From a virus, in IMG/VR virus record IMGVR_UViG_3300025141_000700, positions 1 through 24,889 of that record: a DNA stretch of 24,889 nt; one strand, 5' to 3'. The position numbers and the translations under genes are program-made. The notes below the pieces were generated by a model. It did no database searches. It was not told the DNA's origin and saw nothing but the letters and a program-made list of their open reading frames with translations. Positions 216 to 17,663 of this stretch are shown piece after piece. The number at the start of each line of letters is the position of its first letter. Positions within the stretch are counted from its first letter, which is position 1.

Positions 216-503
216 CTACTTGACGAAAGCGAGCTTGACTGGTGCGGCTTCCTTAGCCGGTGCCTTGGTTGGTCGGTCTTTCTTCGCAGTCACATGCTTG
301 ATCACGAGTTTCTGCTGGTAGCCGATGGACACCCGTACATCGGTGCCTTTCGGCAACCCGATGATCTCGCCTTTGACGGCTCCCCGGATGTTGATCCACT
401 TCCCATCCAGGATATCCCCTTTCTTGTACTTTTCTTCGAGGGGATCGCCTTCGATGAAACTATCCAGAGGAACATCCAAAACAATCTGCACATTCTTGGT
501 CAT
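216..503 (-). CDS. Small basic-tailed protein of unknown function
   Basis: A 95-residue protein and the only leftward gene at this end of the window. The ATG is preceded on the minus strand by AGGAGG at good spacing, which is the main reason to accept it over the several shadow frames here. The first ~68 residues look beta-rich. The last ~25 are rich in Lys, Ala and Pro (KKDRPTKAPAKEAAPVK) and look disordered and basic, so nucleic-acid contact is possible. I do not recognise a family. It reads away from the repeat-rich region at 652-1085 and is divergent to the main rightward operon, so it could encode a factor acting on that region; this is inference from position only. Confidence 0.75.
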   Translation of the reverse strand: MTKNVQIVLDVPLDSFIEGDPLEEKYKKGDILDGKWINIRGAVKGEIIGLPKGTDVRVSIGYQQKLVIKHVTAKKDRPTKAPAKEAAPVKLAFVK

Positions 504-651: not shown

Positions 652-790
652 CTCGTTCACCTTTTGTTCCTCTAGGTTTGTTCCCCATTTGTTCACCATT
701 TGTTCCTCTAGGTTTGTTCCCGGTTTGTTCCCGGTTTGTTCTCTTAGGTTTGTTCTCGGTTTGTTCTCTAGGTCTGTTCTTCCTTTGTTC
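652..790. repeat. Left iteron array: TTTGTTC, 10 exact copies plus variants
   Basis: TTTGTTC starts at 663, 677, 688, 699, 713, 724, 735, 749, 760 and 784. There is a variant TCTGTTC at 773 and a degenerate CTCGTTC at 652. Steps are 11 bp or 14 bp in the order 14-11-11, which gives a 36-bp super-repeat, with slippage near 773. The 14-bp steps carry an extra CTCTAGG-like spacer. Sites are thus roughly one helical turn apart, as expected for a cooperative DNA-binding protein. Low-complexity ORFs read through here only because 36 is a multiple of 3. Confidence 0.9.
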
Positions 791-850
791 TTCTAGTATA
801 TATATATATAAATAGAATACGGGCGTGCGGGCGGGCGAGGGCTAACGAAT
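791..850. other. AT-rich core and GC-rich block between the iteron arms
   Basis: A run of alternating T and A (about 796-815) is followed by a G-rich block (820-840). It is flanked by the TTTGTTC array on one side and the GAACAAA array on the other. An AT-rich stretch between opposed iterons is the usual layout of a DNA-unwinding element in a replication origin. No gene is evident. Confidence 0.5.
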
Positions 851-1085
851 GAACATGCCAACGATACAATTCCCGGAACAAAACGTGAACAAAACCAGAA
901 CAAAACGTGAACAAACCCGGAACAAACCATGAACAAGCTTATGAGAACATTACGTGAACAAATGATGAACAAGCTTATGGGAACAATCCGGGAACAAACA
1001 GGGAATATACCTATGAGAACAAACAGGGGTCGCCCTGTGATGACTAGGGGTCGCCCTGTGATGACCGGGAGAAAGCCGGAACAAG
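851..1085. repeat. Right iteron array: GAACAAA, inverted relative to the left arm
   Basis: GAACAAA or close variants start at 876, 887, 898, 909, 920, 931, 945, 956, 967, 981, 992, 1003 (degenerate) and 1017, with an outlier at 1079 and a related GAACATG at 851. The first steps are all 11 bp. From 931 on, the 14-11-11 pattern appears (931 to 945, 967 to 981, 1003 to 1017), again giving a 36-bp period. This array is the reverse complement of the left-arm element, so the region is a large imperfect inverted repeat of iterons. Confidence 0.9.
1025..1065 (+). repeat. 20-bp direct repeat at 21-bp period with internal dyad
   Basis: AGGGGTCGCCCTGTGATGAC occurs at 1025-1044 and 1046-1065, two helical turns apart. 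The first copy contains the inverted repeat ACAGGG-GTCG-CCCTGT (1023-1038). This looks like a paired operator for a different protein from the one reading the GAACAAA iterons. Confidence 0.85.
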
Positions 1086-1223: not shown

Positions 1224-1418
1224 AGGTTAATAAGAGGCAATACCCGTATAGGCCCAGAAATCGGCCAAAAAAGTTTCCGCTTGACTGTGACATTTCGGCC
1301 ACACCGGGCCAAAAAACGGCGGAATCCTGCGGGTTTTTGCGGCGTTGACACCGGCGAGTTTTTGCGTCAGGGTTGGATCAGTTCCGGTTCAACCCCTTGT
1401 ACATATGGAGATTAGATC
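1224..1418 (+). other. GC-rich leader upstream of the first rightward gene
   Basis: No supported gene. It holds the second copy of CTTGACTGTGACATTT (1280-1295), two copies of GGCCAAAAAA (near 1263 and 1308), and paired GTTTTTGCG elements (near 1332 and 1357) flanking TTGACACCGG (1345-1354). An imperfect hairpin pairs the A-run near 1312 with the T-run near 1333. The structures suggest a structured leader or further regulatory sites. Confidence 0.45.
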
Positions 1419-1649
1419 ATGGCAGCATATACGTATGTTAATGGCATTCGGATAACCTCCCTTTTTAACATCCAAAACAGGGAGGAAGGCTATTATGTAC
1501 GGAAAGACGATACAGAAGTTTTTTGTACTGATTTCGACGAAGCATTGAAGTTAGCCAATATTATCGCTTTCCACAAAGACATGTTATATAAAGAACGTGA
1601 GAAAGCCTTTCTTACCTCTGTCATTAGAAAAAGTGAGGAATCGTCATGA
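1419..1649 (+). CDS. Unknown 76-residue early protein
   Basis: The first gene of the long rightward operon. GGAG lies 8 bases upstream of the ATG, and its stop overlaps the next start in ATGA fashion, so translation is probably coupled. The sequence is soluble-looking: an aromatic-rich N-terminal half (AAYTYVNGIRITSLF), then a helix rich in Lys and Glu at the end. No motif or family is recognised. As the gene next to the presumed early promoter it may act on the host early in infection; this is inferred from position only. Confidence 0.75.
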   Translation: MAAYTYVNGIRITSLFNIQNREEGYYVRKDDTEVFCTDFDEALKLANIIAFHKDMLYKEREKAFLTSVIRKSEESS

Positions 1650-4685: not shown

Positions 4686-5348
4686 ATGACTCTTAATAAA
4701 CTCCCAATAGTAGGTCTTTCCCATATCGCCCATATGTATGGGAAGACACCAGAAGAAACCATCCTGTACTATGCCCGTGTATCCAACCCTAAGAATCAAT
4801 CCAAGGATAATCCAAAGTTACTCACCTATCTAATCGAGAATGAACATTGGTCTCCATTTGAGATGGTCTCCATGTGTTTAGACATTGAGACAACACGGGA
4901 CATAGCACGACAGATACTTAGGCATAGATCATTCTCATTCCAAGAATTTTCACAAAGATATTCAGAGGTAGACTTAAACTGGAACAGGAGATCAGCCCGG
5001 TTACAAGACAAAGAGAATAGACAGAACTCCCATGAGTTAGACCCTGACCTCCATGAACATCGGACATTATCCCAAGAGTGGGAATGGAAACAGTTTGATG
5101 TGATAGAGGCATCAGAGAGGGCATATAGGTGGGCTCTTGAAAAAGGAATAGCAAAAGAGCAAGCCCGTGCCATCCTCCCTGAAGGACTAATATCAACCCG
5201 ACTGTATATGCATGGGACAATCAGAAGCTGGATTCATTACACCGATCTGAGAACCAAACCTGAGACACAAAAAGAACACCGGGCTGTCGCCCTTGAATGT
5301 CAGAGAATTCTTTTTGAAGTTTGTCCTAGTTTAAACAAGGAGTACTAA
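4686..5348 (+). CDS. thyX: FAD-dependent thymidylate synthase ThyX
   Basis: 220 residues, the normal length for ThyX. It carries the ThyX motif as RHRSFSFQEFSQR (79-91; family pattern RHRxxSxxxxSxR), plus HWSPFE at 54-59 and a C-terminal ARAILPEGL...WIHYTDLRT-like segment typical of the family. It methylates dUMP to dTMP using methylenetetrahydrofolate, FAD and NADPH, working as a tetramer in the cytoplasm. With the deaminase upstream and the RNR further on it supplies phage DNA precursors. The start follows AAAAGGAAATAA, an acceptable ribosome-binding site. Its TAA lies inside a tandem decamer repeat. Confidence 0.95.
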   Translation: MTLNKLPIVGLSHIAHMYGKTPEETILYYARVSNPKNQSKDNPKLLTYLIENEHWSPFEMVSMCLDIETTRDIARQILRHRSFSFQEFSQRYSEVDLNWNRRSARLQDKENRQNSHELDPDLHEHRTLSQEWEWKQFDVIEASERAYRWALEKGIAKEQARAILPEGLISTRLYMHGTIRSWIHYTDLRTKPETQKEHRAVALECQRILFEVCPSLNKEY

Positions 5349-5390
5349 GAGTGACTAAGAGTGACTAAGAGTGACTAAGAGTGACTAGGA
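5344..5390. repeat. Tandem decamer ACTAAGAGTG, four copies plus a partial one
   Basis: Perfect copies of ACTAAGAGTG start at 5344, 5354, 5364 and 5374, followed by ACTAGGA. The first copy contains the thyX stop codon. The ACTAAGA core also occurs in the repeat unit at 111-118 and 139-146. It contains repeated TAA/TGA triplets. Confidence 0.9.
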
Positions 5391-12819: not shown

Positions 12820-13249
12820 GGAACAGGGTGATCCAGACCCAGACTGGTATTTTGGATTTTTGTATTTAATCTATAATAAAAAGAATGGTAGAAAATATAT
12901 AGGGAAGAAACAATACAAAAGATACTCGAAGGGTAAACCAATTGGGCACACTGATTGGAAATCGTACACAGGTTCTTCTAAATATCTAAACCAAGATATT
13001 AACAAGATGGGCCTCAGTAATTTTAAATTTGTTATGATCCGTCAATTTGAAACACGGGGTGGCCTTACATACTATGAGGCGAATGCCCAACATAAAATGG
13101 ATGTGATGACATCTCGGATTGACGGCCTTGAAGAAAGAGAGTATTACAACGCTAACATCATGGGGATAAAGTTTGTTACTAAAGAAGTAGTCCCCAACAT
13201 CAATCAACTACTAGAGGAAATTATAAATGTCTACTGCAACACAGATTAA
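12578..13249 (+). CDS. GIY-YIG endonuclease (SegE-like) with basic N-terminal tail
   Basis: Up to 223 residues. The nuclease domain starts near residue 91: GFLYLIYN (93-100) and RKYIGKK (105-111) are the GIY and YIG strands, WKSYTGSS follows, and E167 in LTYYEAN is the likely metal ligand. It resembles the phage SegE-type GIY-YIG family. The first ~80 residues are Lys/Pro/Ser-rich and probably disordered, and lie over the end of the nuclease gene in the +1 frame. The start is uncertain: ATGs at 12578, 12644 (GGAAAG upstream), 12668 and 12776 are all possible, and the core domain is intact from any of them. The role could be replication-intermediate cleavage or homing. Confidence 0.82.
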   Translation: MPEIESQKLKKSSPPKNPRKDVMPPPPQKRMGSSTSKRGASTATSKKRAGKKQTVAKGLSKKQARMAKLAGTQTPWVIHSKEQGDPDPDWYFGFLYLIYNKKNGRKYIGKKQYKRYSKGKPIGHTDWKSYTGSSKYLNQDINKMGLSNFKFVMIRQFETRGGLTYYEANAQHKMDVMTSRIDGLEEREYYNANIMGIKFVTKEVVPNINQLLEEIINVYCNTD

Positions 13250-13463
13250 TACCATTCAAGATCACCTTACCAACGTAGGTCATATCTCAGCACGGGAAGC
13301 TATGCTAGATTACGGCATCGTATCATTACGAGATGCTATCTACCGTCTACGTCGGAAGGGATTTACGATTATCTCAGAAGAACGTATTAACCCTGCTACC
13401 AATAAAAAGTACATTCGTTATTGGACAACGAAACAATATCGACAGGCTCGTAGGGTTTCTTGA
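13227..13463 (+). CDS. Small helix-turn-helix protein
   Basis: 78 residues starting inside the GIY-YIG 3' end, with GAGGAAATTATAA upstream of the ATG. The sequence IQDHLTNVGHISAREAMLDY, then IVSLRDAIYRLRRKGFTI, follows the winged helix-turn-helix pattern of a common phage family (HTH_39-like): a first helix, a turn at GHISAREA, a recognition helix at SLRDAIYRLRR and a wing (ISEERINPATNKKYIRYW). It should bind DNA, perhaps as a regulator or replication accessory. Its stop overlaps the TTG of the next gene. Confidence 0.8.
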   Translation: MSTATQINTIQDHLTNVGHISAREAMLDYGIVSLRDAIYRLRRKGFTIISEERINPATNKKYIRYWTTKQYRQARRVS

Positions 13464-15281: not shown

Positions 15282-17211
15282 TTATCTACCAACCCTCTAT
15301 CAACAATACATTCACCTGTCACGTTACTCACGATGGGTTAAAGAAGAAGAGCGCCGTGAGACATTTGATGAAACGGTGTCACGATATTTTGATTTCTTCA
15401 CCGACCACATTGGTGCCAATGTTCTTACAAAAGAACTAAGAGCATATTTAGAAGAAAAGGTTTTATCACTCGGGGTGATGCCATCAATGCGCTGCTTGAT
15501 GACAGCAGGCCCTGCATTGAAGCGGGAGAACATTGCCGGCTACAACTGCTCGTATGTTCCTATTGATCACCCCAGAGCTTTTGATGAAACTCTGTATATT
15601 CTTATGAATGGAACAGGTGTTGGGTTCTCAGTTGAGAAAGACTTTGTAAACAAACTTCCTATTGTTTCAGACCACATGGAAGACTCAGATTCTATCATCC
15701 ATGTCGCTGATTCTAAGGAAGGTTGGGCTCGTGGTCTTCGTGAGTTAATTGGTGCACTCTATCAAGGTTCTATCCCTAAGTGGGATCTTAGCGATGTGCG
15801 TCCTGCTGGAACCCTTCTAAAAGTTTTTGGTGGACGGGCTTCAGGTCCGGTCCCTCTTGATAATCTTTTTCGGTTCACTGTAGAAATTTTTAAACAGTCT
15901 ATTGGTAGAAAGCTGAGTCCTATCGAATGCCATGACTTGATGTGCAAGATTGGTGAGAGCGTTGTCGTTGGCGGTGTCCGGCGTTCAGCGTTGATTTCTC
16001 TGTCAGACTTGGATGACGTGAGTATGCGTCAAGCCAAGGGCACCCCCTACTGGTGGAAGACCCATCCACATCGAGGACTGTCGAACAACTCTGTCTGTTA
16101 CAAGAACACCCCCGGCTCATCCGATATATTCACAGATATTGGTGAATTTATGGATGAGTGGAATTCTCTTTATCAGTCGAGAAGTGGTGAGCGTGGTATC
16201 TTTAATCGTGAAGCAGCAAAGATGCATGTGGAAAAGAATGGACGCCGTGACTCAAACCATGATTTCGGAACAAACCCCTGCTCTGAAATTATTCTTAGAC
16301 CAAATCAATTTTGTAATTTAACAGAAGTCGTATGTCGTCCCACAGATACTGAAGAAGACCTTATGGATAAGGTTAAGGCCGCAACCATTCTGGGTACCTT
16401 ACAATCAACCCTGACAAATTTTAAGTATCTCCGAAAAATCTGGACTAACAATACAGAAGAAGAAAGGCTTCTAGGTGTATCTCTAACAGGAATCTTAGAC
16501 TGCCCTCTTCTAACTTGGGAAAATAATAATCTGGAGAAGCTTCTGAATGACCTACGCAACCATGCAATTAATGTTAATCACGAGTTCGCTAATAAGCTGG
16601 GTATCAACCCAAGCACGGCTATTACTTGCGTTAAACCTAGTGGTACTGTTTCTCAGCTTGTGGATAGCTCTAGCGGTATTCATGCTCGTCATAACCCCCA
16701 TTATGTACGTAATGTACGTTCTGATATCAAAGATCCTCTTACTAATTTCATGGTTGAGAAAGGATTCCCGCATGAGCTAGAGATAAGCCACGATCCTAGT
16801 AATCCATCACAGAATATGGTCTTTTCCTTTCCGATGGAATCACCACCAACGACAGTCTGCCGCAATGATATGAGTTCTATTGAGCAGCTTGAATTCTGGA
16901 AAATCTATGCGACAGCGTGGTGTGAACACAAACCCTCTGTAACAATCTCCATGAAGGATAGCGAGTGGCTCCATACTGGTGCGTGGGTCTATGACAATTT
17001 TAATTTATGTTCGGGTATTTCATTCCTACCTACGGCGGACCATATCTATGAGCAAGCCCCTTACATTGATATTGACAAAGAACAATATAAGGAATTATCT
17101 ATGACTATGCCGAAAGAAATTAACTGGGAAGATCTTTCTTTGTTTGAAAAAGAAGATAACACCAAGGCTTCTCAAGAGCTTGCATGTACTGCTGGTGTCT
17201 GCGAAATCTAA
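15268..17211 (+). CDS. nrdJ: Class II (adenosylcobalamin-dependent) ribonucleotide reductase, monomeric type
   Basis: 647 residues. The active site NPCSE (N336, C338, E340) contains the thiyl-radical cysteine. C94 (GYNCSY) and C349 (FCNL) form the reducible pair, and the C-terminal CTAGVC (C640, C645) is the shuttle pair that reloads it. This is the layout of the Lactobacillus leichmannii-type reductase, which makes dNTPs from NTPs using vitamin B12 and needs no oxygen or small subunit. At ~650 residues it is shorter than that enzyme (~740). It depends on host cobalamin, typical for roseophage and cyanophage relatives. It ends in TAATG overlapping the next start. Confidence 0.92.
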   Translation: MKTNNYLPTLYQQYIHLSRYSRWVKEEERRETFDETVSRYFDFFTDHIGANVLTKELRAYLEEKVLSLGVMPSMRCLMTAGPALKRENIAGYNCSYVPIDHPRAFDETLYILMNGTGVGFSVEKDFVNKLPIVSDHMEDSDSIIHVADSKEGWARGLRELIGALYQGSIPKWDLSDVRPAGTLLKVFGGRASGPVPLDNLFRFTVEIFKQSIGRKLSPIECHDLMCKIGESVVVGGVRRSALISLSDLDDVSMRQAKGTPYWWKTHPHRGLSNNSVCYKNTPGSSDIFTDIGEFMDEWNSLYQSRSGERGIFNREAAKMHVEKNGRRDSNHDFGTNPCSEIILRPNQFCNLTEVVCRPTDTEEDLMDKVKAATILGTLQSTLTNFKYLRKIWTNNTEEERLLGVSLTGILDCPLLTWENNNLEKLLNDLRNHAINVNHEFANKLGINPSTAITCVKPSGTVSQLVDSSSGIHARHNPHYVRNVRSDIKDPLTNFMVEKGFPHELEISHDPSNPSQNMVFSFPMESPPTTVCRNDMSSIEQLEFWKIYATAWCEHKPSVTISMKDSEWLHTGAWVYDNFNLCSGISFLPTADHIYEQAPYIDIDKEQYKELSMTMPKEINWEDLSLFEKEDNTKASQELACTAGVCEI

Positions 17212-17663
17212 TGACAGAGGTAAGAAAGGCTTTCTCACGTTCTTTATATAATAAAAGCGATAAGACAGCGAAGAATATTATTAGAGAATACCTGATCAAA
17301 TCTGAAGGACATTCCTTATTAAATGATGTAGAGAACTATTATGCTGATCTACAAACATCTAAGGAAGGTAAAGATTATTATCACGAAGCTGAGATGAAAT
17401 ACTCATGGCGTGGCGATTGGCCAACACACTGGGATGAGATCAGGATTCCTTCTCGAAAGAAAAGACTGCTCGAAAAGTATTCAAACGAAAGACTTACTTT
17501 CTATGTTATCTCAGGAGACGAAAAAAGATTCTGGAAAATCAGTTCTGATGCTCTAAGAAAAGCCCCTATCAAGGAAGCCAGTAATAGATACATTGACAAA
17601 GGGGAAACCTTTTTCCATATATCAGTAAGCAATGCTGATCTGATTAGTATTAGTACTGATTAA
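17211..17663 (+). CDS. Unknown protein, possible PD-(D/E)XK nuclease fold
   Basis: 150 residues when started at the ATG of the TAATG overlap with the RNR stop (an earlier in-frame start at 17184 would lie inside RNR and lacks support). After a basic N-terminal helix, D46 and the strand HEAEMKYSW (E61, K63), followed by DEIRIPSRKKRLLEKY and a beta strand RLTFYVIS, are consistent with a D...ExK nuclease core, but no full signature is present. Function is therefore tentative. Confidence 0.7.
   Translation: MTEVRKAFSRSLYNKSDKTAKNIIREYLIKSEGHSLLNDVENYYADLQTSKEGKDYYHEAEMKYSWRGDWPTHWDEIRIPSRKKRLLEKYSNERLTFYVISGDEKRFWKISSDALRKAPIKEASNRYIDKGETFFHISVSNADLISISTD

Follow-up and report, generated by a model that had tools for sequence, protein, structure and literature searches.

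Two opposed arrays of GTTC and GAAC half-sites in an uncultured phage genome are best read as tandem alphaproteobacterial LexA-type operators that would offer a landing site to the LexA of the host and most likely act as a sponge titrating it. Working from sequence comparisons, we give this reading a probability of about 0.55. The arrays lie in an IMG/VR virus fragment of 24,889 nucleotides, hereafter the window, meaning the whole stretch analyzed. A preliminary description of this DNA had reported two facing arrays of about a dozen elements each, and we indeed counted 12 GTTC and 13 GAAC cores. The GTTC cores are found on the plus strand at 655, 666, 680, 691, 702, 716, 727, 738, 752, 763, 776, and 787 (steps of 11, 14, 11, 11, 14, 11, 11, 14, 11, 13, and 11 bp). 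The GAAC cores are found at 851, 876, 887, 898, 909, 920, 931, 945, 956, 967, 981, 992, and 1017, with a first step of 25 bp followed by five of 11 bp and then 14, 11, 11, 14, 11, (11), and 14 bp, the bracketed step leading to a degenerate GAAT at 1003. A further GAAC core lies apart at 1079. The features of the region are as follows.

216-503, minus strand: gene for a 95-amino-acid protein adjoining the array; homologues (39-49% identical) lie beside the arrays of G004, G002, and L052
627-648, plus strand: companion motif TTGACTGTGACATTTTTGCAAC, flanking the left arm on its outer side, found also beside the arrays of G004, L120, L299, L398, and L361
655-790, plus strand: left arm, 12 GTTC half-sites forming seven overlapping GTTC-N7-GTTC pairs
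795-842, no strand: spacer core, a TA run then a G-rich block, partly kept in G004 and missing from G002
851-854, minus strand: GAAC outlier, 25 bp (11+14) ahead of the right arm
876-1020, minus strand: right arm, 12 GAAC half-sites plus the degenerate one at 1003, forming eight overlapping GAAC-N7-GAAC pairs
1025-1065, no strand: 21-bp repeat AGGGGTCGCCCTGTGATGACT, two copies in tandem (four in G004), bordering the right arm on its outer side
1281-1302, plus strand: second, partial copy of the companion motif (TTGACTGTGACATTTCGGCCAC)
1419-1649, plus strand: first rightward early ORF past the array

Fifteen GTTC-N7-GTTC pairs fall within 400 bp (640-1040), while dinucleotide shuffles of the same region had a mean of 0.02 pairs and a maximum of 2 in 2,000 shuffles. 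No such pair was found in the rest of the window or elsewhere in a near-identical genome of 55.8 kb. There are about 10 non-overlapping pairs (dimer sites) per phage genome. The TA bases and the G-rich block noted earlier between the arms were both seen, at 797-812 and at about 821-842, respectively. Tandem direct repeats spaced at about one helical turn are present, and the gaps between pairs differ among relatives. The 36-bp cycle (11+11+14) was said to repeat three times in each arm; it does so approximately, but the left arm closes with a 13, the right arm opens with five 11s, and one right-arm core is lost. Helical phasing is also weaker than initially held, since 36 bp corresponds to 3.4 turns at 10.5 bp and successive units are therefore out of phase. 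An Rfam search gave no match.

The array region of G004 is about 80% identical to that of the window, and those of G002, G003, and G006 are 72% identical. In G002, the arms join at TCTTTATATGACTCT and both the TA run and the G-rich block are gone. A more distant relative, L395, whose large terminase (TerL) is 86% identical, has GTTC gaps of 11, 25, 11, 19, 11, 24, 11, 19, 11, 26, and 11 bp, that is, six separate 11-bp pairs with intervening gaps of 19-26 bp; L396 likewise has discrete 11-bp pairs at variable distances. Hence, the suggested test of whether the rhythm is kept while the bases drift came out negative, as more distant relatives do not share it and retain the 11-bp pair. What is conserved is therefore the pair; the 14-11-11 rhythm is local, mostly reflecting the way paired sites are stacked within one phage lineage. 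For sampling independent of the motif, we fetched 80 TerL relatives. Their 226 kb of DNA upstream of TerL contained 48 GTTC pairs spaced at 11 bp versus 3 to 20 at any other spacing, and downstream of TerL there was no peak at 11 bp. Three or more boxes were present upstream of TerL in 3 of the 52 loci having at least 1.5 kb of upstream DNA, most TerL relatives being devoid of arrays, which indicates that arrays belong to the near clade and are sporadic beyond it. In this survey G001, the 55.8-kb genome mentioned above, scored negative, its array lying across the contig ends.

Motif scans combined with scoring also revealed similar non-coding arrays in other uncultured phage lineages that otherwise have little or no similarity (L343, L303, G005, L361, L374, L384, L147, and L162). 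In L343, two opposed arms flank an AT-rich spacer; opposed arms recur in L303 and G005, and arrays with both orientations usually have GTTC on the left and GAAC on the right. Candidate arrays in L009 and L010 were rejected as chance matches inside genes. A blastn search of the array against cultured phages and plasmids returned nothing relevant, and no arrays were found in the nearest cultured relatives examined, HTVC103P, HTVC027P, HTVC023P, CRP-901, and CRP-207 (HMO-2011-type), the last three over their first 50 kb. Of note, the companion motif (TTGACT)GTGACATTTnTGCAAC adjoins several of the arrays and forms multi-copy repeats without boxes in L364/L365, and palindromes TCAANNNNTTGACA are interleaved with LexA-type boxes in L119 and L366.

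The sequence GTTCN7GTTC/GAACN7GAAC is the LexA operator in alphaproteobacteria (PMC3091678), Caulobacter included (PMC12700426). We found GTTC-N7-GTTC in all 80 alphaproteobacterial lexA promoters fetched and at 18 of 26 lexA genes, mostly from 1.0-1.6-Mb alphaproteobacterial genomes, where it was mostly TTTGTTCTNNNTTTGTTC or close to it. The exact 18-base unit of the array, TTTGTTCNNNNTTTGTTC, occurred in 92 of 289 alphaproteobacterial genomes versus 16 hits of a reversed-pattern control. At least 13 of 40 sampled genomic sites directly precede SOS genes, as assigned by reading translated starts, and these genes include lexA, recA, uvrA/ssb, ssb, imuA-like genes, and Y-family (translesion) polymerases. 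The array resembles the host operator in core, spacing, and the T-rich flank before each GTTC. The flank preferences of LexA (a T preceding GTTC, no G following it, and a T-rich spacer end) are all observed, the absence of a following G being seen in the near relatives. Scored on flanks only, phage sites reached about 2.2 to 5.4 depending on the lineage (means of 3.4-4.0 for G001, G002, and L119, and 5.4 for L162) versus 5.5 for lexA sites and -6.3 (sd 4.5) for random sequences. A second, independent profile from small genomes gave the same score order and agreed for most lineages, the scores of L120, L398, L361, L384, and L147 not being significant against their own shuffles. The p-values overstate independence because array repeats are copies of one another. 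The phage sites depart from the host boxes in having C/G-rich rather than A/T-rich spacers, and hosts have one or two boxes per promoter whereas the two opposed arms of the phage array together contain 15 overlapping pairs. Altogether, we consider a LexA-type specificity of the array sites to be quite probable.

Similar spacing also exists in another setting. Direct 11-bp repeats with a GTTC/GAAC core, as in the window, were found inside replisome-organiser-like genes of L059, L063, L128, L067, L142, L073, and L102, which look like Firmicutes phages (assigned by reading). An iteron could thus imitate the spacing of LexA sites, and spacing alone cannot tell one from the other. Flanks can, and the iteron-like arrays (L059, L063, L128) differ from ours in lying within a coding gene of Firmicutes-like phages and in their flanks, which scored -4.6.

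To place the array in its genome, we used G001 (locus L014), a 55,851-base record nearly identical to the window, and L006, an 8.6-kb record bridging the G001 ends. Two blocks diverge from the array, one running leftward with the late genes (terminase, portal, capsid) and one running rightward with the early genes (DUF932, GP88, methyltransferase, T7-like primase-helicase, Pol A, ribonucleotide reductase), in agreement with the "divergent control hub" suggested earlier as one option. Judged by Pol A and portal, the closest phages in culture have mainly SAR11, Roseobacter, and Caulobacter as hosts. Other repeats were noted in the window: a perfect 45-bp inverted repeat at 1584-1628 and 17207-17251 (15.6 kb apart, also present in G001), 28-bp direct repeats (2.5 copies) at 87-155 that contain the G001 contig ends and lie near a terminator-like hairpin at 4-29, and a tandem repeat GAGTGACTAA of about five copies at 5340-5387.

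No LexA-type domain was found to be encoded by this phage or by the array-bearing relatives tested. Pfam searches of the 55.8-kb genome for tyrosine integrase, S24 repressor, HTH_3, and LexA (PF00589, PF00717, PF01381, PF01726) were negative, and thus did not reveal the integration/repressor module expected of a LexA-switched temperate phage. For these reasons, we favor the capture of host LexA. According to this model, host LexA would bind the operator array from which early and late genes diverge; phage DNA, first on injection and then as it multiplies, would titrate LexA, and host SOS functions would be derepressed. Titration is plausible given about 10 non-overlapping pairs in each genome and the many genomes expected late in infection, and we see it as the main function of the array with a little less than even odds. 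We are more tentative in proposing that, in a group of virulent phages, the genome serves as a DNA sponge for the SOS repressor, inducing the host SOS response without DNA damage. The alphaproteobacterial host, the binding of LexA, and the purpose of titration are three points that we infer. Infection of SAR11 by HTVC027P raises SOS gene expression (PMC12753301); since this distant relative is devoid of arrays, SOS activation occurs in this setting by some route. Two opposed arms at a control region are more than a pure sponge would require, which counts against titration alone.

The best placed of the alternatives, which we nevertheless hold to be unlikely, is a LexA-controlled switch. Here the divergent region would be covered by host LexA, keeping the early and late phage promoters silent until DNA damage occurs (a carrier state or lytic deferment), with no phage repressor involved. 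The position of the array between the two blocks suits such a switch, as does a GTTC half-site within a consensus sigma-70 promoter in L303, and there are precedents in phages timing their lytic cycle by host LexA and in the deferment by host CtrA proposed for alphaproteobacterial phages (PMC9437464). On the other hand, in the window we found no sigma-70-like promoter that overlaps the array, and the boxes of L374 and G005 lie upstream of a sigma-70 promoter rather than on it. The lack of a detectable tyrosine integrase or S24 repressor in the 55.8-kb relative also argues against a switch. Moreover, known LexA-switched phages use few boxes.

The preliminary description favored a replication origin, and an iteron-type origin bound by a phage initiator now appears improbable, and less likely than the LexA reading. 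Direct repeats near helical spacing around an AT core, the opposed arms of L343, L303, and G005, and the replication genes with 11-bp GTTC repeats in other phages would all suit an origin. In addition, L374 has two perfect inverted DnaA boxes (TTATCCACAGGCTGTGGATAA) at 5334-5354, with its LexA-type boxes on one side and a perfect sigma-70 promoter on the other. Near the window array, no DnaA box was found apart from TTATCCAAA, which has one mismatch. Over the whole genome, cumulative GC skew reaches its minimum and its maximum at the two switches in gene direction, and four-fold degenerate sites track the coding strand with no antipodal switch or separate replication signal, so that the skew, explained by gene direction, leaves a bidirectional origin unsupported. 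The 72%-identical G002 lacks the AT/G-rich core, which does not fit a conserved unwinding element. Pfam and PHROGs recognized no initiator and left several small genes unassigned, the replication genes being a T7-like primase-helicase and Pol A. Finally, the flanks fit LexA while those of the other 11-bp GTTC arrays do not. Checks of skew, DnaA box, core, and rhythm therefore yielded no positive support for an origin.

We consider it similarly improbable that the array consists of operators for a phage-encoded LexA-like regulator, for instance the product of 13227-13463 or the 95-amino-acid protein. The former belongs to the winged-helix (HTH_39) proteins and is not LexA. The gene for the latter, previously put forward as a partner of the array, is conserved beside it, but its predicted model is poor (pLDDT 51), no solved fold matched, and host LexA is the better predicted binder. 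Pelagibacter phage HTVC103P does encode a stand-alone LexA DNA-binding domain (gp30, L036:7863-8120, Pfam E 1.5e-14); this phage has not a single GTTC-N7-GTTC site, and no such domain was found in the window phage or in the array-bearing relatives tested. A packaging (pac) or terminase recognition site is very improbable, as several relatives have the array about 1-4 kb upstream of TerL, but L343 and L303 have it beside early genes (GP88, DUF932 homologues), and most TerL relatives have none.

Phages are already known that borrow LexA for a lysogenic switch by means of a few boxes; in the literature searched, with subscription papers mostly outside that search, we found no phage described as having an array of many LexA boxes. 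If our reading is correct, marine phages that appear to be lytic would reprogram the host stress response through a dense operator array, without any protein, and the array sequence would hint that such uncultured phages infect alphaproteobacteria. As proposed for our array, LexA operators lie at the control region of Bacillus phage GIL01 and of CTXphi, 186, and SPC32H (PMC9437464), but these phages have few boxes serving a lytic switch, while the array phage has many boxes and no lysogeny gene was found in it. Another known parallel is phi29, a virulent phage that carries several sites for a host regulator (Spo0A boxes), although regulator and host are different and the sites suspend phage development rather than titrate the regulator (PMC9437464).
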